A stretch of DNA of 46,851 nt. Source: Sphaerobacteraceae bacterium (GTDB lineage: Bacteria; Chloroflexota; Chloroflexia; Thermomicrobiales; Thermomicrobiaceae). The stretch spans positions 1 to 46,851 of the forward strand of contig REEK01000134.1 in NCBI GenBank assembly GCA_007695115.1. The letters are read 5' to 3'. Under the pieces are notes generated by a model. That model saw only the letters and a program-made list of their open reading frames with translations. It had not been told where the DNA came from and did not search any database. Below are positions 10,464 through 24,591 of this stretch, piece after piece (position 1 is the stretch's first letter; each line of letters opens with the position of its first letter). A program made the position numbers and the translations under genes.

Positions 10464-11624
10464 TCAGGCCGCCCCGACCTTGTTGCCGGATTGCTGGTTG
10501 CCGAACATGTCCAGCATGAGCAGGCCTTCGATCTCGATGAACTCGTACATCCGCATCATCGCCTGGAACTCGGGATCGGTGTGCAGGTAGAGCCCCTCCA
10601 TCAGGCCCTGCGCTACCACTGGATCGAACGTCTTGCTGAACTTGTTGTTCTGAATCGCAATGAACAACTTGTAGAGGTCAACGAGCTCCGCCGGCGTGAT
10701 CGGGGTGCGCTGATCGCTCATCAACACCCGCCCCTGCGACATCCGGACCTTCAGGCTGTTCTCCATGGCGAAACGATTGAGCTGGTTCTCGAACTCCACC
10801 GCTGTCTTCCCCTGGCTGAAGAGGATCAGCTTGAAGTAGATTGATTCCACCGCCATGTTGAACAGCTCGGTGACCTTCTGCTTGTCTGGCGGGATCGCTT
10901 CGACATAGCCAGCTTTCACCAGATTAAAGAGGGATCGGGCCGTTTCGAACTGAGTCAGTCCGGCTCGTCCGGCGATGGTGGCGACATCACGGTTCCCATC
11001 GATAAGCCGGTGGACGTTCTTGAGTTCTTTGGGCGGTTCGACCGCCGGTGGGCGACGAGTCCGTCGGTAGATCATGTAGACCGACGGGACGACCGGGCTG
11101 ATCTCGATCCACTCGTCGACGCGTCGGGTTCCCTCGATAATCAGGTGCATAGAATCGACCGAGACAGCGACGCCACCCTCCCGGATACTCTCCCCTGCTT
11201 TGAAGGTGAAATAGCAGTTCCGCCACAGGAACAGCGTGAAGATCGAGATCTCCAGCAGCTGTTCGCGGCACAGGGTCACGTCGTCCTGAGAGATCACCTC
11301 GTTTTTGGTGAGCTCAAAGATGATCGCTTCGTCGCTGCGGATGTTCCGATCGGCCAGCTCTTCGACCTGCTGGCGGGTGATCCGCCCGTGCCGAAGCAGG
11401 AGATCGCGCATCGTCGGAAGCCGGGATCCAGCGGCAACGTAGCTGATGCGGCCATCGAGGAAGGTGATCGTGCGAGAGTTCCAGCCCTGAATCAGTGTCA
11501 GTACACCGGATTTATTGCTGAAACTGAGCATCTGGAACAGATCCGACAGGGTGAAAATGCCGAGTTTCCCCTGCAGATCGAATTCATTCGAGGATAGTGC
11601 AGGCGAGGATGAATTTGGCGTCAT
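10464..11624 (-). CDS. DUF4388 (PatA-like) domain protein (386 aa)
   Basis: The N-terminus (about residues 15-60, FDLQGKLGIFTLSDLFQML, then SGVLTL and ITFLDGRISYV) matches the DUF4388/PatA N-terminal domain found in signalling proteins of cyanobacteria, myxobacteria and Chloroflexota. A helical region (about 70-130) with LRHGRITRQQVEELADR and ELTKNEVISQDDV resembles a degenerate version of the tandem MshEN-like motifs in the proteins at 18630 and 19703. The shared element QLLEISIFTLFLWRNCYFTF follows. The C-terminal part may contain a winged-helix segment (DVATIAGRAGLTQFETARSL). No enzymatic motif is seen. It is last in a unit with the GDSL hydrolase (18-base gap) and HIT-NUDIX genes. Confidence 0.75.
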   Translation of the reverse strand: MTPNSSSPALSSNEFDLQGKLGIFTLSDLFQMLSFSNKSGVLTLIQGWNSRTITFLDGRISYVAAGSRLPTMRDLLLRHGRITRQQVEELADRNIRSDEAIIFELTKNEVISQDDVTLCREQLLEISIFTLFLWRNCYFTFKAGESIREGGVAVSVDSMHLIIEGTRRVDEWIEISPVVPSVYMIYRRTRRPPAVEPPKELKNVHRLIDGNRDVATIAGRAGLTQFETARSLFNLVKAGYVEAIPPDKQKVTELFNMAVESIYFKLILFSQGKTAVEFENQLNRFAMENSLKVRMSQGRVLMSDQRTPITPAELVDLYKLFIAIQNNKFSKTFDPVVAQGLMEGLYLHTDPEFQAMMRMYEFIEIEGLLMLDMFGNQQSGNKVGAA

Positions 11625-11642: not shown

Positions 11643-12689
11643 CTAGCGAGACGGCAGCATCACAGGGATCGAGTCGATTTCCTCGTTGCCGGAAACGTCG
11701 ATCGCTCGAACCGCAATCACTGCGCTGGAGTCGGGATAGTCCCGGGCGTCCCAGACACCGATCCATCGTTCACGGTCGGCAACGTAGATGAGTTCGGAGA
11801 CGGCCTCGCCGTCGATCTCCAGCAGAACTGTCTCGATACTGACGTCATCCGTAGCGATTGCATGAATGGTTGGCGTGCGTGATCGGACCTCGTCTGAATC
11901 CGGACGGGTAATCTCTACGTCTGGCGGCTCCTGGTCATAGCCCAGCTGTTGCCAGATCGTCCGGGCGATCATCTGATGACCGGCGTTGTTGGGGTGGATG
12001 TCGGCCGGGAACCAGGTCAATTCAGTAATGCGATCGGTGAACTCATCCGAGAGATCGACCACCGAGAAGTCGGCCTCCCCGGCAGCGTCGCGGATGACGT
12101 CGTTGAATTGCATGAGCCACCAGGCGTTGCTGCCCTCGACAGAGGGATCACCTTCGGTCAGATCGTAGTAGGTCGTCACTACGACATCGACATCCATGCC
12201 GGTGGTTGCCTCGTCGAGCTCTTCGACGACGTCAGCGAATCCGGCCTCGAAGTTTTCAAGGGCGGCTTCCCGCTCGGCGGGGGTCGATTCCCAGAGCGAG
12301 AGAATGTTGTTGCCGCCGATCGTCAGGGTGATCGTCTGCATGGCGCCGTCTGGTGCTTCTTCGATCTCCGACAGTGCTGACTCCAGTTGCCCGTCTTCAA
12401 TGAATGACTCGATCGTTTCACCAGGCTCTGACAGGTTGATGAGCTCAACATTGCCGGGTGAATCTGAGCTGAGCCGATGGGTCTCCATGAGATTGCGCAG
12501 CACGGCGGGATAGCCACGCTCAGTCGGCAGGCTGGCCAGCAACCCGGCCGGGATCGAATCACCCAGGGCGAGGTAGATCTGCTCGGACTGCGCCGTTGTC
12601 GTCTGCTGACTGGCAATCGGCGTCGCACCGATCAGCCCCAGCGCGAGTATGGCGACGAGTATTCGCAGGGATCGAGCTGACATCATCAT
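11643..12689 (-). CDS. Exported SGNH/GDSL-family hydrolase (348 aa)
   Basis: A lipase/esterase-like SGNH hydrolase. The signal peptide covers residues 1-27 (SLRILVAILALGLIGATPIAS). Block I is YLALGDSIPAG with the nucleophile Ser45; block III is LTIGGNN; block V is WFPADIHPNNAGH with the Asp-x-x-His pair. After about residue 240, a C-terminal segment (PPDVEITRPDSDEVRSRTPTIHA to VRAIDVSGNEEIDS) looks like an immunoglobulin-like beta domain common in extracellular enzymes. The substrate is unknown; surface polysaccharide deacylation is one possibility given the nearby exopolysaccharide operon. Its ATG overlaps the stop of the upstream HIT-NUDIX gene by four bases, indicating translational coupling. 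Three consecutive Met codons leave the exact start open. Confidence 0.88.
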   Translation of the reverse strand: MMMSARSLRILVAILALGLIGATPIASQQTTTAQSEQIYLALGDSIPAGLLASLPTERGYPAVLRNLMETHRLSSDSPGNVELINLSEPGETIESFIEDGQLESALSEIEEAPDGAMQTITLTIGGNNILSLWESTPAEREAALENFEAGFADVVEELDEATTGMDVDVVVTTYYDLTEGDPSVEGSNAWWLMQFNDVIRDAAGEADFSVVDLSDEFTDRITELTWFPADIHPNNAGHQMIARTIWQQLGYDQEPPDVEITRPDSDEVRSRTPTIHAIATDDVSIETVLLEIDGEAVSELIYVADRERWIGVWDARDYPDSSAVIAVRAIDVSGNEEIDSIPVMLPSR

Positions 12690-13600
12690 TGCGGGCTCTC
12701 AATCAACGATTCGATTTCATCACGAACCGCCCGCAGCATATCGCGGGCTGGTTCATGTGACAGCACAGAGAGTGCCTCGTCTATCGAGTACAGCTCGGTG
12801 TCGGAATCGAGATGCTCGCTGAAGGTTGGACCAGGTTCAGCCGACATGATCAGATTGGATACCCGGCGCTGTTTGCCCCCATGCTCGAACGCCAGTACAC
12901 CGGCCCAGCCGGAAGGTACGCCATTCAGTCCCATCTCTTCGTCGATCTCCCGGATTGCGGTCTGCCAGGCGGCTTCGCCTGGTTCGATATGTCCTTTGGG
13001 GAAGACCAGGCTGCCGTCTGCGGTGCGACGAAGCGCAATGGCCTTGTGCGATGGCACCACCGGAATTGCCCCGGCCTGGGGAACGATGTCAGAACCGTCC
13101 GGTGAACCGTGCAGTTCGGAGATCTCCATCTCCGCCCGGATCTTGGCATAGGTGATCGGCATCAGCTCCGGCAGAACCATCGTCTTCGCCAGGATCGGCA
13201 TGAAGTTGGCATCACCTTCCCAGCGGGGAACGATGTGCACGTGCAGATGCTCGGAGACACCAGCTCCGGCGATACTGCCGAGGTTCAGGCCTATGTTGAA
13301 GCCATCACAGCGGAGAACCCGGCGCAATGCTTCGGTCGCCCAGGGGACCAGGCGCCAGATATCCTGGTTCACCTCGGGTTCGAGTTCGGCGAGTTCCGCA
13401 GCGTGCTGGAACGGGATCACCATCACATGGCCAGAGTTGTAGGGATACAGATTCATGATTACGTAGGCATGACGGGAGCGATGCAGGATCAGCGTGCTGA
13501 CATCGTCAGCATCTTCGGGTTTGGTGCAGAAGATGCACGAGGAGTCGCGAGTCTCCCCGCTGACATAGCGCATTCGCCACGGTGTCCAGAGTCGTTGCAT
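12686..13600 (-). CDS. HIT domain-NUDIX hydrolase fusion protein (304 aa)
   Basis: Two nucleotide-hydrolase domains are joined in one chain. Residues 1-160 form a HIT domain: LWTPWRMRYV at the start, a CIFC cysteine pair (residues 22 and 25), and the histidine triad HLHVHIV with His118, His120 and His122; such domains hydrolyse or transfer nucleotidyl groups from dinucleoside polyphosphates. Residues 175-300 form a NUDIX domain with a complete Nudix box: Gly203, Glu209, Arg217-Glu218, Glu221-Glu222 and Gly224. Both active sites look intact. A likely theme is clearance of diadenosine polyphosphates or other nucleotide derivatives; this is inference. The stop overlaps the start of the GDSL hydrolase gene by four bases. 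Confidence 0.9.
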   Translation of the reverse strand: MQRLWTPWRMRYVSGETRDSSCIFCTKPEDADDVSTLILHRSRHAYVIMNLYPYNSGHVMVIPFQHAAELAELEPEVNQDIWRLVPWATEALRRVLRCDGFNIGLNLGSIAGAGVSEHLHVHIVPRWEGDANFMPILAKTMVLPELMPITYAKIRAEMEISELHGSPDGSDIVPQAGAIPVVPSHKAIALRRTADGSLVFPKGHIEPGEAAWQTAIREIDEEMGLNGVPSGWAGVLAFEHGGKQRRVSNLIMSAEPGPTFSEHLDSDTELYSIDEALSVLSHEPARDMLRAVRDEIESLIESPQ

Positions 13601-13858: not shown

Positions 13859-15322
13859 ATGTCGACGTTGCGTTCGGCAGCCGGAACAGAACGCTGGTTG
13901 ATGCCCGCAGGACGGGCGGCTATCGACGCCGGGGTCGTGTTCGTTGCGTTCGCGCTGGCCTACTGGCTTCGCTATACGCTCGAGCTCGGTGGTGAAGTTC
14001 TTCCCGGATTCAGTCAGCCATTCTCCTTCTTCCTTGACAGCGTCATTATTCAGCTGATGATCGTCACGGTCGTCGTCTTCCATCTGCGCGGGATCTATCG
14101 CCTGCCACGCTGGACAAGCTTTCTCGATGAAGCGCTGATCATCGCCAGCAGTGCCACAACGGCAATGGCAATCATCATTCTGTATAGCTATCTGCAGCGA
14201 TTCTTCCCATCTCGTTTGATATTCATCTACGCCTGGGTGCTGATGATCGCGCTCTTGCTCGGCAAGCGTCTGATTGTTCGCATGGTCCGGCAGGGTTTCT
14301 GGTCTCGCGGAATCGGGGTCGATCGCGTATTGATCGTCGGGGTCGGACGTGCCGGACAACGCATCATGCAGCATATCTATGGCAATCCGCAGCTGGGCTA
14401 CCGGGTAGTCGGCTTTCTGGGTGATCCCCCGGACGACGCGAACTGGGGTATTGCCACGGAACGGAGGGTGGAGCGGCCACCCTACCTTGGCGATCCTGGC
14501 GCGATCGAAGAGGCGATCCGCCAGCATGAGATCAGCGAAGTGATCATCGCCTTGCCGCCTGCCGAACACCGGAACATCTTCCGGATGATTCAGCAGTGCC
14601 GGCAGATGGACGTTTCATTCACGTTCCTGCCTGATCTCTTCGAGATGGCGCTCGACCGGGTGACGATTCATGAGGTCGCCGGGCTGCCGCTGATCGAGTT
14701 GCGGGAATCGCGTATTCGGGGCTGGAACTATGTGGTCAAGCGGGCGATGGACCTCCTGGTAGCGATCGGGGTGATCGTGTTGCTGTCTCCTCTCCTGCTG
14801 CTGATCGGACTGGCCATCAAGCTGGATTCTCGAGGACCGGTGTTCATCCGCCAGGTACGTGTGGGGCGCGATGGCAACCAGTTCATCTGCTTCAAGTTCC
14901 GCTCGATGGTCGAGAATGCCGAGCAGCTCAAAGAGGAGCTGATGAAGCAGGCCGGAAACAATGGCCCGCTCTTCAAGATGAAGGATGATCCGCGGATCAC
15001 CCGGGTGGGGCGAATCCTTCGGAAGACGTCGCTGGACGAGATGCCCCAGTTCATCAACGTTGTGCTTGGTGAGATGAGCGTGGTCGGCCCTCGCCCGCAG
15101 ATTCCGGCGGAAGTCGAGCTCTACGACGACTGGCACCATCGACGGCTGGAAGTGACGCCCGGACTGACAGGGCTCTGGCAGGTAAGCGGTCGCAGCGATC
15201 TCAGCTTCGATGAGATGGTCAAGCTCGATCTGTACTACGCCGAGAACTGGTCACCGTGGCTGGATATCAAGTTGATGCTTCGCACCATTCCGGCGGTGAT
15301 GTTCGGTCGGGGAGCCTACTAG
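13859..15322 (+). CDS. Exopolysaccharide polyprenyl-phosphate sugar phosphotransferase (487 aa)
   Basis: Starts exopolysaccharide repeat-unit synthesis by moving a sugar-1-phosphate from a nucleotide sugar to undecaprenyl phosphate in the membrane (WbaP/CpsE-type, PHPT family). The N-terminal 120 residues contain four hydrophobic helices. A CoA_binding_3/Rossmann-like region follows (about 150-260, VDRVLIVGVGRAGQRIM). The catalytic bacterial sugar transferase domain (about 290-487) begins with the helix DLLVAIGVIVLLSPLL and includes FKFRSM, RKTSLDEMPQF and GEMSVVGPRPQ, then the end motif TPGLTGLWQVSGRSDLSF. Length is normal. It is first in a five-gene plus-strand operon. Confidence 0.94.
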   Translation: MSTLRSAAGTERWLMPAGRAAIDAGVVFVAFALAYWLRYTLELGGEVLPGFSQPFSFFLDSVIIQLMIVTVVVFHLRGIYRLPRWTSFLDEALIIASSATTAMAIIILYSYLQRFFPSRLIFIYAWVLMIALLLGKRLIVRMVRQGFWSRGIGVDRVLIVGVGRAGQRIMQHIYGNPQLGYRVVGFLGDPPDDANWGIATERRVERPPYLGDPGAIEEAIRQHEISEVIIALPPAEHRNIFRMIQQCRQMDVSFTFLPDLFEMALDRVTIHEVAGLPLIELRESRIRGWNYVVKRAMDLLVAIGVIVLLSPLLLLIGLAIKLDSRGPVFIRQVRVGRDGNQFICFKFRSMVENAEQLKEELMKQAGNNGPLFKMKDDPRITRVGRILRKTSLDEMPQFINVVLGEMSVVGPRPQIPAEVELYDDWHHRRLEVTPGLTGLWQVSGRSDLSFDEMVKLDLYYAENWSPWLDIKLMLRTIPAVMFGRGAY

Positions 15323-15374
15323 CTAGTATCCTTGTGCACTGAATTTCAGCTCGGGCAGGGTGATCAGGATACGA

Positions 15375-16526
15375 ATGTCAGAACCACGAATAGCGCTTTC
15401 ACACGACTACCTGAATCAGTACGGCGGGGCGGAGCGCGTGGTGGAGGTTTTCCACGCGATGTTCCCGGATGCGCCCGTGTATACCTCTATCTATGATGCG
15501 CAATCGATGCCGCCAGACTACCGACAGTGGGATATCCGGACATCGTTCCTGCAGCGGATTCCCGGCATTCACAAGAATCATCAGCCGTTCCTGCCGCTGT
15601 ATCCGGCTGCGTTCAAATTCCTCACCGTGGACCCTGCTTATGATGTACTACTGTCGTCCAGCAGTGCCTGGGGCAAGGGTGTCCGCGTGGATCCTTCTGT
15701 CCTGCATATCTGTTATTGCCATTCGCCGATGCGATTCGCCTGGGATTTCGAGCACTATGCAGAGCGAGAGCGGATGGACGGCATGAGCCGCCGTGTGGTT
15801 CAGCCGATTCTCCGGCGCTTGCGGAACTGGGACCGGGCAACCTCGAAGCGTGTCCATCAGTTCATCGCCAATTCCGCGGTGGTTCAGGAGCGGATCGCGA
15901 CATTCTGGGGTCGACAGTCGATCGTTGTTCATCCACCCGTCGATACGGAATCATTCGAGCCGGCGCCACCCAGTGAGATCGGTGACTACTACGTCCTGGT
16001 ATCTCGTCTGGTGCCCTACAAGCGATTTGATCTGGCGATCGAGGCGGCCAATAGTCTCGGCATTCAGCTGAAGATCATCGGCGATGGACGGGCCAGAGCC
16101 GATCTGGAGTCGATGGCTGGGCCGACCGTTGAATTTCTGGGCCGTGTCTCCGATGCTGAGCGAAATCAGCTGTTTGCCCGATGTAAGGCAGCGATTTTTC
16201 CGGCTGAGGATGACTTCGGAATTGGGCAGGTGGAAGTGCAGGCCGCTGGACGTCCGGTGATCGCGCTCGATCGTGGTGGTGCCCGGGAGACGGTTCTTGA
16301 TGGCGAGACTGGGGTACGATTTGCGGAACAGACGGCGTCCGGAGTAGCCGATGCGATCCGTCGATTCGAGCAATTGACGTTTGATCCGGAGCGGATCGTT
16401 TCCCACGCGTCGCGGTTCAGCCGAGCGCGGTTCGAGCGTGAGATTTCCCGTGTTATCGATGACGCCTACGCTCGCCACACCGACGCAGCTGGATCTCCGT
16501 CCCGTGTTTCGCCCGGCAATCTCTGA
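15375..16526 (+). CDS. GT4-family glycosyltransferase (383 aa)
   Basis: A GT-B fold retaining glycosyltransferase that would add a sugar from a nucleotide donor to the lipid-linked intermediate. N-terminal motif SHDYLNQYGGAERVVEVF is the acceptor-domain glycine loop. The donor domain shows YVLVSRLVPYKRFDLAIEA, IIGDGRARADLE and the E-x7-E type site in AEDDFGIGQVEVQAAGRPVIA. The start is ATG 15375 with AGGA five bases upstream; a GTG at 15360 would add five residues. It lies 52 bases after the sugar transferase and 13 bases before the first Wzz-like gene, clearly in the same operon. The donor sugar cannot be told from sequence. Confidence 0.92.
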   Translation: MSEPRIALSHDYLNQYGGAERVVEVFHAMFPDAPVYTSIYDAQSMPPDYRQWDIRTSFLQRIPGIHKNHQPFLPLYPAAFKFLTVDPAYDVLLSSSSAWGKGVRVDPSVLHICYCHSPMRFAWDFEHYAERERMDGMSRRVVQPILRRLRNWDRATSKRVHQFIANSAVVQERIATFWGRQSIVVHPPVDTESFEPAPPSEIGDYYVLVSRLVPYKRFDLAIEAANSLGIQLKIIGDGRARADLESMAGPTVEFLGRVSDAERNQLFARCKAAIFPAEDDFGIGQVEVQAAGRPVIALDRGGARETVLDGETGVRFAEQTASGVADAIRRFEQLTFDPERIVSHASRFSRARFEREISRVIDDAYARHTDAAGSPSRVSPGNL

Positions 16527-16539
16527 TGATTGAGGATCC

Positions 16540-17238
16540 GTGGAGCTGACTTACTACTACGCCATTCTGCGTCGCCGATGGGTACCAGTTGTCGTGGTGC
16601 CGGCTCTGGTGGCGCTGCTGGTTGCCGGACAAGTGCTGTTGTCGGAGCCGTCCTATGCAACGTCGGCTCAGTTTACGGTGACACGTGCGCCGCAACAGAT
16701 TGATATCGACGAGTTTCGCTACAACGAGTACTACCTGTTTCTCTCCAGTGAGTTCATGGTCGATGACCTTGTCGAAGTGGTCCGGGGAAATGTCTTTGCC
16801 GAGGACGTCCATCAGCGGATGCTTGCCGATTTCGGATTTGAAGTGCCGGTGGACGAGATCCAGATGTCAATGACATCCGAACGAACTCATCGAATCCTGT
16901 CGATCGATGTCGCCCATGAAGAGGAAGACGTCACGGTGGCAATTGCTCAGTCGGCCACCAATCAGCTGAACGAGAGCGCAACCGCGTACTTCGGTTTTGA
17001 CGGCGAGGACCGCGGAGCCCTGGTGGAACCGATCGAGTTTCCACTGGCGGCTGACCCTGATCTGAGCCGGGATCAGGTCTTCTGGGCGCTGCAGCTGGCA
17101 ATGGCAATGTTTGGCGGGCTGATGATCGCAATCTTCCTGGAGTACATCGATGATCGTCTGCACAGCGCCGAGGCTGTCGAGCACTCGCTGGGGCTGGATG
17201 TCATCGGTGAGGTTCCACGGGGAGAGGGATCCGCGTGA
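16540..17238 (+). CDS. Wzz/YveK-like polysaccharide chain-length protein, copy 1 (232 aa)
   Basis: A polysaccharide co-polymerase of the CpsC/YveK type that sets chain length and partners a cytoplasmic BY-kinase. There are two transmembrane helices: near residues 14-33 (WVPVVVVPALVALLVAGQ) and about 183-205 (QLAMAMFGGLMIAIFLEYI), with an extracellular helical domain between. The cytoplasmic tail SAEAVEHSLGLDVIGEVP is the segment typically found before a CpsD-like domain. The start is GTG 16540 with GAGGAT just upstream. Its stop overlaps the GTG of the next gene by four bases, so the two Wzz-like proteins are probably made together. Confidence 0.85.
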   Translation: MELTYYYAILRRRWVPVVVVPALVALLVAGQVLLSEPSYATSAQFTVTRAPQQIDIDEFRYNEYYLFLSSEFMVDDLVEVVRGNVFAEDVHQRMLADFGFEVPVDEIQMSMTSERTHRILSIDVAHEEEDVTVAIAQSATNQLNESATAYFGFDGEDRGALVEPIEFPLAADPDLSRDQVFWALQLAMAMFGGLMIAIFLEYIDDRLHSAEAVEHSLGLDVIGEVPRGEGSA

Positions 17239-17921
17239 GACCGGAAGAGTACCTGCTGATCATCGCTCGACGCTGGTGGCTCGTGTTGCTCACGATCGTC
17301 GTGGCGGCGGGTGTGGCGTTTGTCTATAGCTCGACACAGGATGAGACGTATCAGGCGTCAGCCCGGTTGATGGCAATTGCCGAACCACCTGACTACTACA
17401 CCGATCTCTACGCCAAGAACCGACTGGCGTCCTATCGGGATCAGATCGACAATTACGACTTCGTACAGCAGGCGCTGGCCAGCGCCGATGTCGATATCGA
17501 TCCTGGCCGGGCGGTGAATGCGTTGTCGATGGGCCACAATCCTGACAGCAACATCGTTCAGGTGATTGCCACAGACAGCGATCCAGAGCTGGCGGCAACC
17601 GTCGTCAATGCGGTGGCCAGCGAGTTCGTGGCGCAGATGGATCGAGAGAATGAGGTCATCCGGGAGACCTATGTCGATGAGGATCAATCGATCTACCGGG
17701 GTGGAATCGTTCGGATTTCCCAGCTCGACACACCCGGTCCCCCGGAGTCGGCAATCGGTCCACGAACTCGCCTCAACACCGCGGCAGCGGCAATTCTCGG
17801 GCTGGCTTTCGGGGTCTTGCTGACATTCGGGGTGGCCTACTTCGAGGATGCACTGCGGAAACGCGAAGATATCGAACGCTATCTCGACCTGCCAACTATC
17901 GGACAGATACCGAAACGCTAG
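17235..17921 (+). CDS. Wzz/YveK-like polysaccharide chain-length protein, copy 2 (228 aa)
   Basis: Same architecture as the preceding gene: a transmembrane helix near residues 15-32 (WWLVLLTIVVAAGVAFV), an extracytoplasmic domain, a second helix around 183-203 (AAAAILGLAFGVLLTFGVAYF) and a tail REDIERYLDLPTIGQIP. Overall identity to copy 1 is low, so they are old paralogues or distinct partners. Proteins of this type normally contact a CpsD-like ATPase through the tail; such a gene follows 16 bases downstream. The start GTG (17235) overlaps the previous stop as GTGA, indicating translational coupling. Confidence 0.85.
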   Translation: MRPEEYLLIIARRWWLVLLTIVVAAGVAFVYSSTQDETYQASARLMAIAEPPDYYTDLYAKNRLASYRDQIDNYDFVQQALASADVDIDPGRAVNALSMGHNPDSNIVQVIATDSDPELAATVVNAVASEFVAQMDRENEVIRETYVDEDQSIYRGGIVRISQLDTPGPPESAIGPRTRLNTAAAAILGLAFGVLLTFGVAYFEDALRKREDIERYLDLPTIGQIPKR

Positions 17922-17937
17922 CATGGAGGCGCACGCC

Positions 17938-18609
17938 ATGGCATCCGCAAAGACCCCGGGATCGTCGCCAGACCTTATCGTGGTGCGAGAACCGGATTCG
18001 CCCGGCGCACAGGCTTATCGATCGGTTCGGGAAACGTTGCGACATGCCCGATCCGAACAACCGGTTGGATCGCTCCTGCTGGCCGATGTGGGCTCGGGAG
18101 ACCAGTCCGGTGAGGCCGCGGCCAACATTGCGGCCAGCTTTGCGCTGAACGGCGAATCGACGGTACTGGTTGATCTCGATGCTGCCAGCCCCGTGGTGCA
18201 CTCCATCGTGAACATTCCATCCAGCCCGGGGTTGATTGACTGGCTGGCTGCTGAGCGAGATTCCGCCGAGAAACGACCATCGCCGCATCCATCGTCGGTG
18301 GAGTATCTGTCGGTGCTTCCCGCTGGGGACCGAAACGTGTCCTCCATCCAGTCGCCGCTGGCTGATCTGCTCACCGACACCCGCTGCAAGGCGCTGGTGA
18401 GCGCGTTGCAGGCCGATGCTCGATACGTCGTCTTTCACGGATCGGCATCGCCAGTCAGTAGTCAGCTGCTTACCGCGGCTGCCAACGTCGATGCGGTGGT
18501 GTTGATTGTACGGTCTGGAACGACGAAGCGGACGGCCGCGCAGAATGCTAAAGAATCGCTGGAACGAGTAGGTGCCAGACTGCTCGGAGTGGTGCTCACC
18601 GAAGATTGA
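17938..18609 (+). CDS. CpsD/BY-kinase-like protein with degenerate Walker A (223 aa)
   Basis: The fold is that of the MinD/CpsD ATPases that regulate exopolysaccharide export. The N-terminus EPDSPGAQAYRSVRETL matches the family, and Walker A-prime is present as VLVDLDAASP (residues 76-85). The P-loop, however, reads ADVGSGDQSGEAAAN (residues 49-63): the expected Gly-Lys-Ser/Thr is missing, and no lysine is found in the loop. There is also no tyrosine cluster at the C-terminus. It is therefore probably not an active tyrosine autokinase, but could serve as a structural partner of the Wzz-like proteins. ATG 17938 has GGAGG eight bases upstream; an ATG at 17923 is less likely. It is last in the operon. 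Confidence 0.8.
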   Translation: MASAKTPGSSPDLIVVREPDSPGAQAYRSVRETLRHARSEQPVGSLLLADVGSGDQSGEAAANIAASFALNGESTVLVDLDAASPVVHSIVNIPSSPGLIDWLAAERDSAEKRPSPHPSSVEYLSVLPAGDRNVSSIQSPLADLLTDTRCKALVSALQADARYVVFHGSASPVSSQLLTAAANVDAVVLIVRSGTTKRTAAQNAKESLERVGARLLGVVLTED

Positions 18610-18629: not shown

Positions 18630-19631
18630 TCAGGGCAGGAACTTCATGACGAACATTCGGTCTTTACCGTCGGAGTCCGATGAACGTCCTTCGAGCGTGT
18701 TGACTGTACTCTGGATCAGCCCTCGCTCGATCAGCTCGACAATCGACCGCTCGGGTAGCGCATTTACGGCGTGAATCGCTGCGCTTATCTTCTGATAGCT
18801 CCGCTCTCCATTCAGCATCGTCAGCAATGCCGCCCGGGCTCCACGAGTGAGATCGGTAAGTTGCCAGACGTCGATCGTCCGATCGACCAGTTCCAGGATA
18901 CGGTGGTCATCCACATCTGATGGGGACTTCTCGTTCCCGGGATCACCCGAAGGCTCGATCTGCTCCAGATGCCGCAGGAGAAACGCCAGACTGCGCTCTA
19001 CGCGGGGCTGATCGGGCCGAAGCTCGACGGGCGCGGCGTCGATCGACGCCTGCACCTGCTTCAGCCGGAGAAACAGAGCCTGTCCCGGTGATTGTTGCGG
19101 GTAGTCAACGATCTCACTGGCAATCCGGTCGGATGAACCTGCGCCGGAGCGCTCGAGCCAGTATTCACTGAGAAATGCAGTGGTAAGAATCAATGGATCC
19201 GAACCGGTGGATGCGGGATACTCGATCCCGGGGGCCGGATCGTGTTGTTTGAATCTCAGCGTTCGCCTGGACTCGTCGAACATGACCATCAGCGCCGAGG
19301 CGATCTGAGTGGCCATCGCCTGACCAATCGCTGATTCCGAGATGAAGCCGACATCGACCAGCACATCGCCGATTCGTTCGGGATCTGGTGCTACCGATTG
19401 CAGCGCCAGCGCCTGCTCGATCTCTTCCTCAGTCGTAAACCCGAGCTGAATCAGCACCTGACCGATCCGCAACGACTGATCACTGGTGGAGACCGATCGA
19501 ATTACTCCCTGATCAACAGACACAGTGAGCGACATCGAGGCAGACAGACACGTCAGCGATCCCGATTTCCGGAATCGCCGCAGCGCACTGAATAACTCAA
19601 GCAACGTAGCGGCGTCCAGTTTGCCGCGCAT
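18630..19631 (-). CDS. DUF4388 protein with tandem MshEN-like motifs (333 aa)
   Basis: Residues 1-52 are a DUF4388/PatA-like domain (MRGKLDAATLLELFSAL, SGSLTCL, VDQGVIRSV). Two 24-residue motifs follow, Arg55-Gln78 and Arg86-Gln109, each with the pattern R-I-G, Gly at position 10 and Gln at position 24, separated by seven residues. This closely matches the c-di-GMP-binding MshEN motif found at the N-terminus of type II secretion and pilus ATPases, although the usual spacer there is five. The remaining C-terminal two thirds is helical with no recognised catalytic motif. AGGA lies upstream of ATG 19631. It is last in a minus-strand operon and converges on the exopolysaccharide operon. Confidence 0.75.
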   Translation of the reverse strand: MRGKLDAATLLELFSALRRFRKSGSLTCLSASMSLTVSVDQGVIRSVSTSDQSLRIGQVLIQLGFTTEEEIEQALALQSVAPDPERIGDVLVDVGFISESAIGQAMATQIASALMVMFDESRRTLRFKQHDPAPGIEYPASTGSDPLILTTAFLSEYWLERSGAGSSDRIASEIVDYPQQSPGQALFLRLKQVQASIDAAPVELRPDQPRVERSLAFLLRHLEQIEPSGDPGNEKSPSDVDDHRILELVDRTIDVWQLTDLTRGARAALLTMLNGERSYQKISAAIHAVNALPERSIVELIERGLIQSTVNTLEGRSSDSDGKDRMFVMKFLP

Positions 19632-19702
19632 CGCTGGTCCTGTCCCGTCGATACCAGGGAATAGTCGGTATCATGGCGAGGTATCGTTCGAAGCTCGTTT
19701 CG

Positions 19703-20443
19703 TCAGGGAGTGTCGGCTGTTGCCTGATCGGTCGACTTCAGCTCCACCAGCTGAATCATGCTTCGATCCTGCAACCCCGAGACCGCCTGACCAAATTGCT
19801 CAGAATTTAGCCCGCTTCGTAAAGCGATGACGTCGATGGTGGAATCACCATTGAGCACAGACATCACCAGCGATCGTTCTTCATCGGTGAGCGAGTTCAC
19901 CGTTGACGCATCAATGAGCGTATCGGTCAGCTCCACCCGTAGATTCGAATCATGCACTGCCCCCCACTCATCGGCAAGTCGCATTGCATTGAGCACCATC
20001 GATTCGAGCCGGATTCCGCTGGCTATCGGGTCGGTTTCAATGTTGGTAGCCGGCTCGAACGAGAAGGTCCCACCGTATTGCACGAGAATCCGGAAAATGG
20101 ATGCTTCGAGCTGGGCGTTGACGGCATTCTGAATCTGCCCGCGTGTGACGTAGCCGACGTCGATAAGCACATCACCGATTCGCGTCGTGTCCGGGTTCAC
20201 GGCTTGCAGGCCGAGCGCCTGTTCGATCTGCTCCTCGGTCACGTAGCCTTGCGACACCAGCAACTGGCCGATCTTCAATGACCCATCACTGGTCGTCACC
20301 GAGGCGACAGCCCCACGGTCGAATTCCAGAGAAATGTCGTGTGACTGTGTAGTGAGGACGAGCAGCCCGGATTTACCGTGGCTTGAGATGACGTACAGGA
20401 TGTCCTGCAGCGGAAGGTCTACGAGATCGCCGTAGAAGCCCAT
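19703..20443 (-). CDS. DUF4388 protein with tandem MshEN-like motifs, second copy (246 aa)
   Basis: Homologue of the preceding protein. Residues 1-52 (MGFYGDLVDLPLQDILYVIS, SGLLVL, FDRGAVASVT) form the DUF4388 domain; the MshEN-like motifs are Lys57-Gln80 (first Arg replaced by Lys) and Arg88-Gln111 with a seven-residue spacer. LEASIFRILVQYGGTFSFEP matches the element after the motifs in the protein at 10464. The C-terminal 100 residues look like a small helical/winged-helix segment (DSTIDVIALRSGLNSEQF). The ATG at 20443 is chosen because the domain starts there and GGTGGG lies upstream, although the frame is open much further. It overlaps the end of the upstream gene by 25 bases, indicating an operon. 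Confidence 0.75.
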   Translation of the reverse strand: MGFYGDLVDLPLQDILYVISSHGKSGLLVLTTQSHDISLEFDRGAVASVTTSDGSLKIGQLLVSQGYVTEEQIEQALGLQAVNPDTTRIGDVLIDVGYVTRGQIQNAVNAQLEASIFRILVQYGGTFSFEPATNIETDPIASGIRLESMVLNAMRLADEWGAVHDSNLRVELTDTLIDASTVNSLTDEERSLVMSVLNGDSTIDVIALRSGLNSEQFGQAVSGLQDRSMIQLVELKSTDQATADTP

Positions 20444-21255
20444 CGGTGCCCACCAGATTTCTCTTTGAGCGACGAGAGTATCGCCGCGTCTCGGTTCAGG
20501 CCAACAGATCCCATGACCTGCCTGACGATCCAGTCGACGTGTGCCTCGGTCAGCGTCCGGTCGGTTACCACCCGCAAAATGATCAACCCTTCGGAGATCT
20601 CTTCGAAGCGGGTTTCGATCGTGAATGGTGACTCGGCGAGTACCTGGCGCAAGCGCGAAAGCCGCTCGAGGCTGACATCTCCATTGAAGTTTACCCACCA
20701 GCGCTCAAGTTGTTCATCCCCGGCGCCCTGAAGGCACTGATATCCACCGGGTCGATTCGGCTGCTGGCGTCTCTCCGGGATGTCGGAAACCGCCCAATTG
20801 CTCGATTCCCCACCCGTTGAATGCGTGTCACCCCCACTGGCTCGCGGCAGGTGTGCCTCAGTTACGGGTTCGGTAGCTGGTCGTCTGAGTGGCGACGCGG
20901 CGAGCGGTGGGCGTGTGAACTCCGCCGGATCGAAGGCAACGATGTGCCCGCCGATGTGGAACGCGTCATTACCCGCTTGCTGTGCTGCTGGATCTGATTC
21001 GGACTGAATCTTCTCGTCTGCTTCATCAATCTCTTCTCTGGCAGCGGGCGTCACAAACTGCTCGGTACGTTCGATCAACTGATCGATCCGGTAAAGCAGT
21101 TCGAACAGACGCTCCAGCTCCTGTCGGAGTTCTCCGTCAATAAGGCCGTGCTCGCCCGATTTTCGGAGCAGGCGAAGTAGCGACGGTTCATCGGAATGAT
21201 CCCGGGAGACATCCGCATTCGTTTGCTGGCTCATGTGCGAGGGATGTTTGGACAT
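20419..21255 (-). CDS. Uncharacterised protein with coiled coil and C-terminal alpha/beta domain (278 aa)
   Basis: No database family recognised. The N-terminal third is helical with a probable coiled coil (GELRQELERLFELLYRIDQL to EEIDEADEKI). The middle (about 95-185) is a low-complexity, Pro/Ser/Gly-rich linker. The last 90 residues form a compact domain: RWWVNFNGDVSLERLSRLR, then IETRFEEISEGLIILRVVT, then EAHVDWIVRQVMGS. The same pattern ends the 136-aa protein encoded just upstream, so the two are paralogous in this domain. The start is uncertain: ATG 21255 is chosen, with GGAG eleven bases upstream; ATG 21336 is an alternative. It overlaps the DUF4388 gene downstream. Confidence 0.65.
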   Translation of the reverse strand: MSKHPSHMSQQTNADVSRDHSDEPSLLRLLRKSGEHGLIDGELRQELERLFELLYRIDQLIERTEQFVTPAAREEIDEADEKIQSESDPAAQQAGNDAFHIGGHIVAFDPAEFTRPPLAASPLRRPATEPVTEAHLPRASGGDTHSTGGESSNWAVSDIPERRQQPNRPGGYQCLQGAGDEQLERWWVNFNGDVSLERLSRLRQVLAESPFTIETRFEEISEGLIILRVVTDRTLTEAHVDWIVRQVMGSVGLNRDAAILSSLKEKSGGHRWASTAIS

Positions 21256-21404
21256 AGTCTGATTCACTCCGCCGAAATATGCCGGTGTCGAGTGGGCCGA
21301 GTAATTGTGCTGCCGTGAATTCGGCAAGTAGACCATTATTCCAGCCTAGTGAGCGATACGTGGCGCGTCAATGTGAGGCAGTACTGAACCTGGCAGTACG
21401 ATCG

Positions 21405-21503: not shown

Positions 21504-21914
21504 TTAGTTTGCCGGTGAGATCGTGGAGCCATTCCGGGTCAGAGCCCAGACAGCACGCTCCAGTGGACCCATCGGGATGCCACCAGTGGTCACCAGTCGA
21601 ATGGCGATCTCTCCGCCGTCGAAACGCTCGACGCGGGCGTCGATGATGTCTTCTCGTTGCTGAAGCTCGGCCCGGAAATGGGCGATGCGGTCGAGCCGGG
21701 TGTTTCCTTTGACAACGATGCGCCAGCGTGAGACTTCATAATCGTTGATGCGCCATGAAGGATCGGCGACATCCTGCAGTTCGTTTGCCGGAATTTCGTT
21801 GATCGAATCGAGCAACTGGTTCAGTTGATCAAACTCGTGCTGGACTCGGGAATCGTGAGCAAGCACGTGTTCGAACACTTGCTCATCATCTGCGATCAAC
21901 TCGTTACTCATCAT
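21504..21914 (-). CDS. Uncharacterised small protein sharing the alpha/beta domain of the 278-aa protein (136 aa)
   Basis: Unknown function. The first 60 residues are helical and acidic (NELIADDEQVFEHVLAHDSRV). The last 75 residues form a domain that aligns with the C-terminus of the neighbouring 278-aa protein: SRWRIVVKGNTRLDRIAHFR with RWWVNFNGDVSLERLSRLR, then GGEIAIRLVTTG with EGLIILRVVTDR, then LERAVWALTRNG. A beta-alpha-beta-beta-alpha ferredoxin-like fold is plausible; this is inference. ATG 21914 has AAAGGGG nine bases upstream, while the frame extends to a GTG at 21938. It is driven by the strong promoter at 21956-21983 and is the first gene of the DUF4388 group. Confidence 0.7.
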   Translation of the reverse strand: MMSNELIADDEQVFEHVLAHDSRVQHEFDQLNQLLDSINEIPANELQDVADPSWRINDYEVSRWRIVVKGNTRLDRIAHFRAELQQREDIIDARVERFDGGEIAIRLVTTGGIPMGPLERAVWALTRNGSTISPAN

Positions 21915-21946
21915 GTCGGCAGCCCCTTTCTGTTCCACTCACTAAG

Positions 21947-22066: not shown

Positions 22067-22146
22067 CCTCACAGGCTCAATGAATCATTTCACGCACCTG
22101 CACCTGCCTTATCATAATGCAGTGTGTGCCAGGAGGACAGGCCGAT

Positions 22147-24591
22147 ATGTCGTTCCCCTCTCCCATCGAAGATCCGGTAGACATTACCAGGGCTGCTGCG
22201 GATCAGACGCTCAGCGATGATCACCTGGCGGCGCTCGAAGAAGTCCAGCGACGGGTACTCTGGCTGAGTGCGCTAAGTATTCATCACGCGAACAATGTTC
22301 GCCCAAATCCGGACGGAATCAAAGTCGGCGGGCATCAGGCGTCATGCGCCTCGGCTGTCTCGATCATGACCGCGCTGTACTTTCATGCGCTTCAACGGGG
22401 TGACCGGATATCCATCAAACCGCATGCGTCTCCAGTTCTGCATGCCATTCACTATCTTCTTGGCAATCTGAACAAGGAATACCTGACAACGTTACGCGGC
22501 TATCGCGGGCTACAGGCCTATCCGAGCCGCACCAAAGACCCGTTCCCAGTGGATTTTTCTACGGGTTCTGTCGGTCACGGTGCGGTGGCTCCGGCGTTTG
22601 CCGCGCTGAGCCATTCCTATCTTCGCACACACTTTGGGGACGTGACATCTCGCCGGTTTATCTCATTCATTGGAGATGCCGAGCTGGACGAGGGAAACAT
22701 CTGGGAAGCGGTGATCGAAGAGGCTCTGGCACCGGCCGGGAACGTTCTCTGGATCGTCGATCTGAACCGGCAAAGCCTGGACCGGGTGATTCCGGGCATC
22801 CGCGCCACCGAGATGAAGGGGCATTTCGCCCAGTCCGGCTGGCGGGTGCTGGAGGCCAAGTATGGCCGCGCGTTGCGGGATGTCTTCGCTCGTCCGGGCG
22901 GGCCATCCTTCCGACGCGCGATCGATGCGATGGAGAACGAGGAATACCAGACGTTGATTCGCCTGCCGGGCGACAAGTTGCGGCCGCGTCTGATCAACTT
23001 CCGGGGTGTCCACAATCCGGGCATCGAGCAAGCGATCGCTGACGTCCCGAATGAGGAACTTCCCGGGTTGCTGGCCAATCTCGGCGGGCACGATATGCAG
23101 GACCTTATCGATATCTTCGAAGAGGGACTCCGACCGTCCGATCAGCCCACTGTGATCTTCTGCTACACCATCAAGGGATGGAACATGCCCTTCTACGGTG
23201 ACGCGCTGAATCACTCGGCGATCATGAAAGATGAACAGATCGAGGAGCTTCGGGAACAGATCGGCATCGCCGAGGAAGATCAGTGGGAGCGGTTCTCCGA
23301 AGATTCAGCAGCGGGTCAGCTCTGCCAGGAGGCGTTCGAGCGCCTCTATGCTGGAGAGGAACCACGAACCCCGGCCGTGAGAGCTGATCAGGTGCCTGTT
23401 CACCTGGGACATTCCCGGGTGAAAACGTCTTCGACACAGGAGTCGTTTGGTCGACTGATGACCCAGCTGGCTGACCTGGAGGATGTCGGTCCCCGGATCG
23501 TCACGGTCTCGCCTGACGTCTCGACATCGACCAATCTCGGCGGGTGGATCAACAAGACCGGGGTCTTCGCGCTGAGTGAAGCGACTCGCTACGATGAAGA
23601 CGATGACAATGCCCCGAAGTTGTTGCGCTGGGAGCCGAAGCCAGCCGGGCAGCACATCGAGCTCGGAATTTCCGAGATGAACCTGTTCTCGATGCTCGGG
23701 ATGCTCGGCCTCTCGCACGAGCTGAGCGGGCAGATGGTCTTCCCGATCGGCACAGTCTACGACCCGTTCGTGCTTCGCGGGATGGATGCACTGGTCTACA
23801 GCGTCTATTCCGGCTCCAAGATGGTATTCGCCGGTACGCCGTCTGGAATTACCCTGGCCCCTGAAGGTGGCGCCCATCAATCGACAATTACGCCTTCAGT
23901 CGGTATCGAACTGCCGGGTCTCCGCGCCTACGAGCCGTGTTTTGCCCAGGAGCTCGAGTGGGCGTTGCTGGATAGCCTGCGTCAGTGCTGCGATCGGGAG
24001 AATGGCGAGTCGACCTATCTTCGCCTGTCGACCCGACCGGTGGATCAGACGCTATTCAGCGCCGCGCTAGACCGAATCGGTCAGGACGATCTCCGACGGC
24101 AGGTTCTGGCTGGTGGCTACCGGATAGTCGATGCCGCCTATGACGCACCGGACACTGATCCGCGGGACACGGTCGAGATCGTTGCTGCTGGCGTGATGGT
24201 CCCTGAAGCGATCAAGGCGGCCGGAATCCTGCATCAGGAGGGCGTCGCCGCAAACGTGATCAACCTCACCTCAGCACAGCAGCTCTACGCGCAGTGGCGC
24301 GAGTGGCAGCGATACGATGCCGGGATGATCGATGGCCCTGAGCCGACGATGCACCTCGATACGCTGATTCCGTCAGCTGAACGCCGGGCGCCGATCGTGA
24401 CCCTGCTGGATGGTGCCTCCCATACGCTGGCTTGGATCGGGAGCGTGAACGGTGCCCAGGTCACGGCGCTCGGCGTGGATCAGTTCGGGCAGTCTGGAAC
24501 GCTCAGCGAGCTCTACCAGCACTACGAGATCGACCCGGAGCGGATTGCCATGGCTGCGTTTGCCGCACTCGATCGCCGGGATGGCGTCTGA
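22147..24591 (+). CDS. Homodimeric-type (AceE-like) pyruvate dehydrogenase E1 / transketolase-like enzyme (814 aa)
   Basis: A thiamine-diphosphate enzyme with the domain order of AceE: an N-terminal TPP-binding domain with GGHQASCASAVSIMTAL, KPHASPVLHAIHYLLG, FSTGSVGHGAVAP and the TPP motif GDAELDEGNIWEAV ending DLNRQSLDR; a middle pyrimidine-binding domain (ELGISEMNLFSMLGMLGL, with the catalytic-type Glu); and a C-terminal transketolase-type domain. It would decarboxylate a 2-oxoacid, classically pyruvate, and pass the acyl group to an E2 lipoyl protein, but no E2 or E3 gene is nearby. It is about 70 residues shorter than typical AceE. ATG 22147 has GGAGG ten bases upstream. The OsmC-like gene follows after 35 bases. 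Confidence 0.87.
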   Translation: MSFPSPIEDPVDITRAAADQTLSDDHLAALEEVQRRVLWLSALSIHHANNVRPNPDGIKVGGHQASCASAVSIMTALYFHALQRGDRISIKPHASPVLHAIHYLLGNLNKEYLTTLRGYRGLQAYPSRTKDPFPVDFSTGSVGHGAVAPAFAALSHSYLRTHFGDVTSRRFISFIGDAELDEGNIWEAVIEEALAPAGNVLWIVDLNRQSLDRVIPGIRATEMKGHFAQSGWRVLEAKYGRALRDVFARPGGPSFRRAIDAMENEEYQTLIRLPGDKLRPRLINFRGVHNPGIEQAIADVPNEELPGLLANLGGHDMQDLIDIFEEGLRPSDQPTVIFCYTIKGWNMPFYGDALNHSAIMKDEQIEELREQIGIAEEDQWERFSEDSAAGQLCQEAFERLYAGEEPRTPAVRADQVPVHLGHSRVKTSSTQESFGRLMTQLADLEDVGPRIVTVSPDVSTSTNLGGWINKTGVFALSEATRYDEDDDNAPKLLRWEPKPAGQHIELGISEMNLFSMLGMLGLSHELSGQMVFPIGTVYDPFVLRGMDALVYSVYSGSKMVFAGTPSGITLAPEGGAHQSTITPSVGIELPGLRAYEPCFAQELEWALLDSLRQCCDRENGESTYLRLSTRPVDQTLFSAALDRIGQDDLRRQVLAGGYRIVDAAYDAPDTDPRDTVEIVAAGVMVPEAIKAAGILHQEGVAANVINLTSAQQLYAQWREWQRYDAGMIDGPEPTMHLDTLIPSAERRAPIVTLLDGASHTLAWIGSVNGAQVTALGVDQFGQSGTLSELYQHYEIDPERIAMAAFAALDRRDGV

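Follow-up and report, generated by a model that had tools for sequence, protein, structure and literature searches.

On contig REEK01000134.1 of a Sphaerobacteraceae bacterium, the minus strand at positions 18630-20443 of the window (the whole stretch of 46,851 nucleotides analysed here) carries two neighbouring genes, P0001 and P0002. A sequence-only reading of this locus had pointed to tandem motifs of the MshEN type, which bind the biofilm signal cyclic di-GMP (c-di-GMP), in their DUF4388 products. This raises the question of whether the two proteins are c-di-GMP receptors and, if so, what they control. As set out below, P0001 and P0002 are very probably regulators that respond to c-di-GMP and belong to a known type.

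Two Tandem Proteins with Paired MshEN_N Motifs

The positions of the two genes, their inserts and the neighbouring features are given in Table 1. Both open reading frames and the positions of the motifs were confirmed, and each protein contains two 24-residue motifs, as the sequence-only reading had claimed. In P0001, motif I is RIGQVLIQLGFTTEEEIEQALALQ (residues 55-78) and motif II is RIGDVLVDVGFISESAIGQAMATQ (residues 86-109), with the spacer SVAPDPE between them. In P0002, the corresponding motifs are KIGQLLVSQGYVTEEQIEQALGLQ (residues 57-80) and RIGDVLIDVGYVTRGQIQNAVNAQ (residues 88-111), joined by the spacer AVNPDTT. The spacer of seven residues described earlier is thus present in both proteins. 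The C-terminal half of P0001 is longer than that of P0002 and divergent from it.

Table 1. Features of the window around P0001 and P0002.
Feature	Position	Strand	Description
P0002	19703..20443	-	246 aa; PATAN/DUF4388, predicted nested MshEN_N-type four-helix c-di-GMP motif, predicted C-terminal winged helix
P0001	18630..19631	-	333 aa; tandem paralogue of P0002, N-terminal DUF4388 and predicted MshEN_N insert
MshEN_N insert of P0002	20111..20275	-	residues 57-111; motif I 20275-20204, motif II 20182-20111
MshEN_N insert of P0001	19305..19469	-	residues 55-109; motif I 19469-19398, motif II 19376-19305
C-terminal winged helix of P0002	19730..19951	-	approximately residues 165-238
DUF4388 paralogue	10464..11624	-	PF14332 80.6 bits; helical insert kept, R1/G3/Q24 largely lost
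BY-kinase (polysaccharide tyrosine-kinase) homologue	17848..18609	+	no Walker-A lysine; convergent, ends 21 bp from P0001
Wzz/PCP-type chain-length determinant	17235..17921	+	PF02706 27.6 bits, above cut-off
Second PCP-type chain-length determinant	16540..17238	+	profile matches, family loci
GT4 glycosyltransferase of the EPS cluster	15360..16526	+	PF13692, PF00534
WcaJ-type undecaprenyl-phosphate glucose phosphotransferase	13859..15322	+	initiating enzyme; TIGR03023 431 bits, above cut-off
Upstream gene	20419..21336	-	3' end overlaps the start of P0002 by 25 bp; no Pfam family
Further upstream gene	21504..21938	-	144 aa; related C-terminal region (tblastn)

The residues of each protein were shuffled 200,000 times. 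A single motif appeared once in the shuffles of P0002 and twice in those of P0001, and the double motif appeared in 0 of the 200,000 shuffles of either protein. In a six-frame translation of the window, the 24-residue pattern was found at four places only, all of them in P0001 and P0002. As the double motif never arose in the shuffles and the pattern occupies only these four places in the window, chance is excluded.

The NCBIfam profile NF053729 ('cyclic di-GMP-binding domain-containing protein, MshE-related'; curated cut-off of 38 bits) matched P0002 with 49.9 bits and P0001 with 44.8 bits, and the full length of the profile was covered. These are the only matches above the cut-off in the genome, an assembly of 3.68 Mb that is 98.5% complete. 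Both proteins also exceeded the curated cut-off of PF14332 (DUF4388; 25 bits), P0002 with 84.7 bits and P0001 with 43.5 bits, and no Response_reg (REC) domain was found in either of them by the Pfam profile search.

The PF05157 profile (MshEN_C) had no match in P0001, in P0002 or elsewhere in the genome. This empty search was not counted against the motif, since in the GT2 glycosyltransferase fusions of sister genera PF05157 aligns to the segment that follows the motif, which is MshEN_C. In the fusion L067, for example, the motif spans residues 25-77 and the PF05157 match follows directly at 78-163. For P0001 and P0002 we therefore claim MshEN_N only; the two-subdomain MshEN is incomplete in them, with MshEN_C absent. 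This subdomain is dispensable in V. cholerae, whose isolated MshEN_N was found to bind c-di-GMP no less well than the complete domain does (Wang et al.; PMC5013675).

Ligand-Contact Residues Are Retained across the Family

The contact residues were examined in an alignment of 20 proteins (17 P0002 and three P0001). The set tested comprised R1, L2, G3, L17, L21 and Q24 of both motifs, that is, twelve positions. All twelve were filled by accepted residues in the 20 proteins, with conservative changes only (K, I, V, M and one F). G3, G10 and Q24 of both motifs, R1 of motif II and L21 of motif I were invariant (20/20). Position 1 of motif I was either R or K, being Lys in P0002, and the other hydrophobic contact positions were occupied by I, L, V, M or, once, F. 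A permutation test against randomly drawn columns of the insert showed stronger conservation of the six R1/G3/Q24 columns (p 0.0006). The spacer between the motifs was 6-7 residues long. Beyond the 20 aligned proteins, the second Gln is replaced by Leu in one orthologue (L029), and R1 of motif I by His in another (L043).

NF053729 and DUF4388 both matched all 20 family members scanned, and NF053729 was present in 21/21 family genomes. The named relatives belong to the Thermomicrobiaceae (Chloroflexota). In the three closest, all of them 'CSSed' MAGs, the P0002 orthologues show 75-96% identity. P0001 is a duplicate confined to the genus, and its relatives were found in L047, L048 and L049 alone.

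The window encodes a further DUF4388 protein (10464-11624), located approximately 8 kb from P0001 and P0002 and having orthologues across the family. In motif I, this paralogue and its orthologues have T at R1, R, T or P at G3 and mainly R or E at Q24; in motif II, they have I, V or L at G3, the alignment of the second motif being uncertain by one residue. Most packing positions are kept in the paralogue family despite the loss of R1/G3/Q24. The paralogue is a natural control, showing that a helical insert of this kind can exist without the motif.

Predicted Fold of the Insert

In P0002, strands are followed by four helices, further strands and a C-terminal helical region. In both proteins, the motif lies within the DUF4388 match, at the place of the helical insertion known from DUF4388/PATAN domains. 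The AlphaFold model of P0002 (mean pLDDT 78) has helices at residues 58-64, 70-82, 89-96 and 101-121. The model of P0001 shows the same helices, being usable to approximately residue 130 and poor beyond it. In both models, strands flank the helical insert on both sides, as DUF4388/PATAN requires. Such an insert was reportedly called the alpha-clip by Makarova et al. in 2006 and predicted to be a four-helix bundle.

Both models were superposed by VIA-align on c-di-GMP-bound MshE (5HTL) with a Z of 6.4 and 1.6 Å over 58 residues, the identity over the superposed residues being 40% and 34% for the two models. With c-di-GMP-bound PilF-GSPII-B, the best Z was 6.2, at 1.6 Å over 57-58 residues. The matched region of P0001 comprised residues 53-112. 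Models lacking the MshEN pocket had been named in advance as the outcome that would speak against c-di-GMP binding; this outcome did not occur, both models matching MshE and PilF-GSPII-B. A Z of approximately 6 is modest, as expected for a bundle of 58 residues, and the match of the predicted folds is best taken as supporting and not as sole evidence. The non-binding XpsE superposed less closely (2.6 Å, P0001 model), and so did the N-terminal domain of X. citri PilB (2.4-2.9 Å). Some holo PilF entries were no better (2.3-3.4 Å). The structural fit of the models alone therefore does not separate binders from non-binders.

A whole-model Foldseek search gave no match below E 0.001. Fold recognition was confined to the bundle and the winged helix, and no fold is claimed for the PATAN halves. 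Residues 162-239 of the P0002 model matched winged-helix chains (VIA-align), and the profile search found TrmB in 10 and MarR_2 in 8 of the 20 family members.

P0002 Orthologues Face Exopolysaccharide Genes

The P0002 orthologue was found tail-to-tail with the same exopolysaccharide (EPS) genes at 16 of the 17 family loci. At the 17th locus (L049), the contig stops before the EPS genes; L060 and L061 come from one genome. Past the tail-to-tail point, the tyrosine-kinase homologue is followed by the Wzz/PCP proteins and GT4, up to the contig limit, and the WcaJ-type transferase lies farther out in most of the long family loci. A Wzz/PCP gene adjoins the P0002 orthologue at 16/17 loci, and in the genus of the window P0001 stands between P0002 and the convergent EPS genes. 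The linkage of P0001 and P0002 to the EPS genes is thus convergent and not that of one operon. Many family loci also have, next to the EPS cluster, a conserved gene for a HIT-NUDIX fusion protein (12686-13600 in the window, minus strand). On the other side, 22117-24591 (+) encodes a homodimeric pyruvate-dehydrogenase E1-like/transketolase-like protein, which scored 200 bits against the aceE cut-off of 860 bits.

The kinase homologue matched TIGR03018, EpsG and eps_fam, all below the cut-offs. The Walker-A lysine is absent from it in all 13 aligned family members, and the C-terminal tyrosine cluster is absent from the homologue in the window. An intact BY-kinase paralogue encoded elsewhere in the genome has SAAPGEGKTT. 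From these sequence features, the kinase homologue (with homologues in L047-L062) is probably a pseudokinase partner of the PCP proteins.

At gaps of -25 to +21 bp from the P0002 orthologues (L048-L063), the adjacent upstream gene encodes a small protein whose C-terminal region is conserved, and because of these gaps the pair looks co-transcribed. The C-terminal region of the product of the upstream gene in Table 1 resembles this small protein across the family. By tblastn, the product of the further upstream gene matched the homologue of 20419-21336 in L048 as well as upstream genes in L059 and L063. The small upstream gene has apparently been duplicated in the genus of the window.

c-di-GMP Enzymes and Candidate Receptors of the Host

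In the host genome, the profile search found 16 complete GGDEF domains and about 10 of the EAL type. PilZ was found in 12 of the 16 other family genomes and in 0/5 genomes of the host's own genus, an absence limited by genome incompleteness. The same limit applies to the MshEN motif, for which the host genome has no instance beyond P0001 and P0002. The survey of receptors in this genome covered the PilZ and MshEN types. The single T2SSE-type ATPase of the genome is CpaF/TadA-like and is encoded beside a CpaE-like gene on another contig.

In several sister genera, a complete MshEN forms the N-terminus of a GT2 glycosyltransferase (L067 and L073; by size, L065-L072). Within the limits of genome completeness, this fusion was undetected in the genus of the window.

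Proposed Mechanism and Its Alternatives

Given the observed anatomy of the proteins, the fold match, the conserved contact residues, the c-di-GMP enzymes and the EPS linkage, we consider it likely that P0001 and P0002 are PATAN proteins whose MshEN_N insert binds c-di-GMP, with control of the EPS cluster as the likeliest output. The proteins would be cytoplasmic, and the helical insertion of their PATAN domain would be an MshEN_N four-helix bundle that takes one c-di-GMP. We hold with high confidence that the ligand binds in this predicted bundle. Each 24-residue motif would grip one guanine: R/K1 would stack, G3 would provide a backbone contact, Q24 would reach the ribose and phosphate, and I/L2, L17 and L21 would form a hydrophobic triangle. 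The bundle sits between the two PATAN halves, so that ligand binding should alter the presentation of both halves and of the C-terminal winged helix. As for the target, we lean towards the convergent EPS cluster. The cluster could be reached either by promoter control through the winged helix or by direct contact with the EPS chain-length and kinase-like proteins.

Alternatively, the insert might be an MshEN_N bundle of purely structural role that has lost c-di-GMP binding, so that P0001 and P0002 would be plain PATAN scaffolds. PATAN domains are known with helical insertions (Makarova et al., 2006), and near-consensus MshEN-like domains do not always bind, as in the case of XpsE and PilF GSPII-A; the paralogue at 10464-11624 likewise presents the fold persisting without the motif. 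However, R1, G3 and Q24 are all kept in P0001, P0002 and 18 relatives, whereas the known non-binders lost several of them, and the genome encodes c-di-GMP synthesis, so we regard the loss of binding as unlikely. It is hardly credible that the ligand is another cyclic dinucleotide such as cGAMP: the MshEN of V. cholerae does bind 3',3'-cGAMP, but with a KD of 3.3e-4 M, approximately 660-fold more weakly than c-di-GMP, and here the contact residues are the c-di-GMP set and GGDEF and EAL genes are abundant.

A c-di-GMP receptor of this kind could also act on a pilus motor, with the PATAN protein contacting the extension ATPase. Elsewhere, MshEN is typically found in pilus ATPases, and the cyanobacterial PATAN-CheY response regulator PixE interacts with PilB1. 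Such an output is quite improbable for P0001 and P0002, because the only T2SSE-type ATPase is the CpaF/TadA-like one on the other contig; moreover, PF05157 has no match, REC is absent and the conserved neighbours are EPS genes. Control of the EPS cluster by c-di-GMP remains our preferred reading. Its farthest extension, which we find rather doubtful, is that the genus relies on these two proteins as its principal dedicated c-di-GMP receptors, which have taken over control of an EPS unit whose tyrosine-kinase partner has lost the ATP-binding P-loop. If this were true, a second messenger would be the switch of chain-length control instead of tyrosine phosphorylation.

Thermomicrobiaceae have many c-di-GMP enzymes, and in the genus of the window neither PilZ nor an MshEN-ATPase was detected. 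A PATAN-MshEN_N protein beside EPS genes conserved family-wide offers a concrete candidate for both the receptor and the output. The results also suggest that some proteins of DUF4388, a large and uncharacterised family, are receptors for c-di-GMP, and that R1/G3/Q24 in the insertion can be used to recognise them.

Comparison with Known Systems

The inserts share with the MshEN_N of MshE (5HTL) the two 24-residue motifs, the same contact residues and the four-helix bundle. They differ in having a spacer of 7 instead of 5 residues and no MshEN_C, and they are nested in DUF4388, whereas the domain of MshE is N-terminal to the ATPase. The spacer of seven residues and the detachment from a secretion ATPase were both implied to be unusual in the sequence-only reading, and neither holds as a novelty. 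The GSPII-C domain of Thermus thermophilus PilF, reported to bind c-di-GMP (PMC12002112), has the 7-residue spacer KGLPRAK (6F8L), although it is part of a traffic ATPase and has Pro at R1 of motif II. The PilB chain 5ZFR aligned gap-free with the 7-residue version in the PDB search, and the family itself has 6-7. This comparison indicates that the spacer is real but not special, and that the two motifs would still be close enough for one bundle. PilF GSPII-B has Lys at position 1 of motif I, as in P0002. Apart from ATPases, MshEN is known with REC, HD-GYP, CheA, glycosyltransferase and other domains.

The PATAN domain with a helical insertion was described in 2006 (Makarova et al.; PF14332), and P0001 and P0002 resemble it in having DUF4388 halves on both sides of the helical insert. 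PATAN-REC response regulators contain REC, which P0001 and P0002 do not. The combination of DUF4388 with the motif is also present in other Chloroflexota loci (L119, L123, L126, L130 and L131). Elsewhere in Chloroflexota (L113-L132), the MshE-related motif occurs in many short proteins, with repeated motifs and spacers of up to approximately 10 residues; in L127, MshEN is combined with a histidine kinase and in L117 with GAF.

A further likeness is to EpsG (TIGR03029), whose N-terminal 60 residues are matched by P0001 (EpsG residues 3-62) and P0002 (EpsG residues 3-60) and whose kinase part is matched by the adjacent gene (EpsG residues 63-273). The scores of P0001 and P0002 were 19-26 bits against a cut-off of 313.8 and concern only the first approximately 60 of 274 positions. 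All 20 family members matched this MshEN-like N-terminus, far below the cut-off. EpsG is one fused chain, whereas here the genes are separate and convergent, the kinase homologue lacks the Walker-A lysine, and no kinase P-loop domain is found in the same chain as P0001 or P0002, so that EpsG membership does not apply to them. The pattern of matches looks as if a fused protein had been split into adjacent genes, which is domain-fusion evidence for a functional tie, although all these scores lie far below the EpsG cut-off. NfrB (PRK11234) and the GT2-MshEN fusions L067 and L073 likewise tie MshEN to polysaccharide synthesis; in these, the domain is fused to the glycosyltransferase, and L067 and L073 also have MshEN_C.

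In the literature searched (PATAN with c-di-GMP, DUF4388 and EpsG), no experimental study of a PATAN-MshEN protein was found. The helical insert of PATAN, the detached MshEN, the 7-residue spacer and the DUF4388 architecture with the motif are known already. The details that are new here are the family-wide linkage to the EPS genes, the conserved small upstream gene and the kinase homologue without the P-loop lysine.
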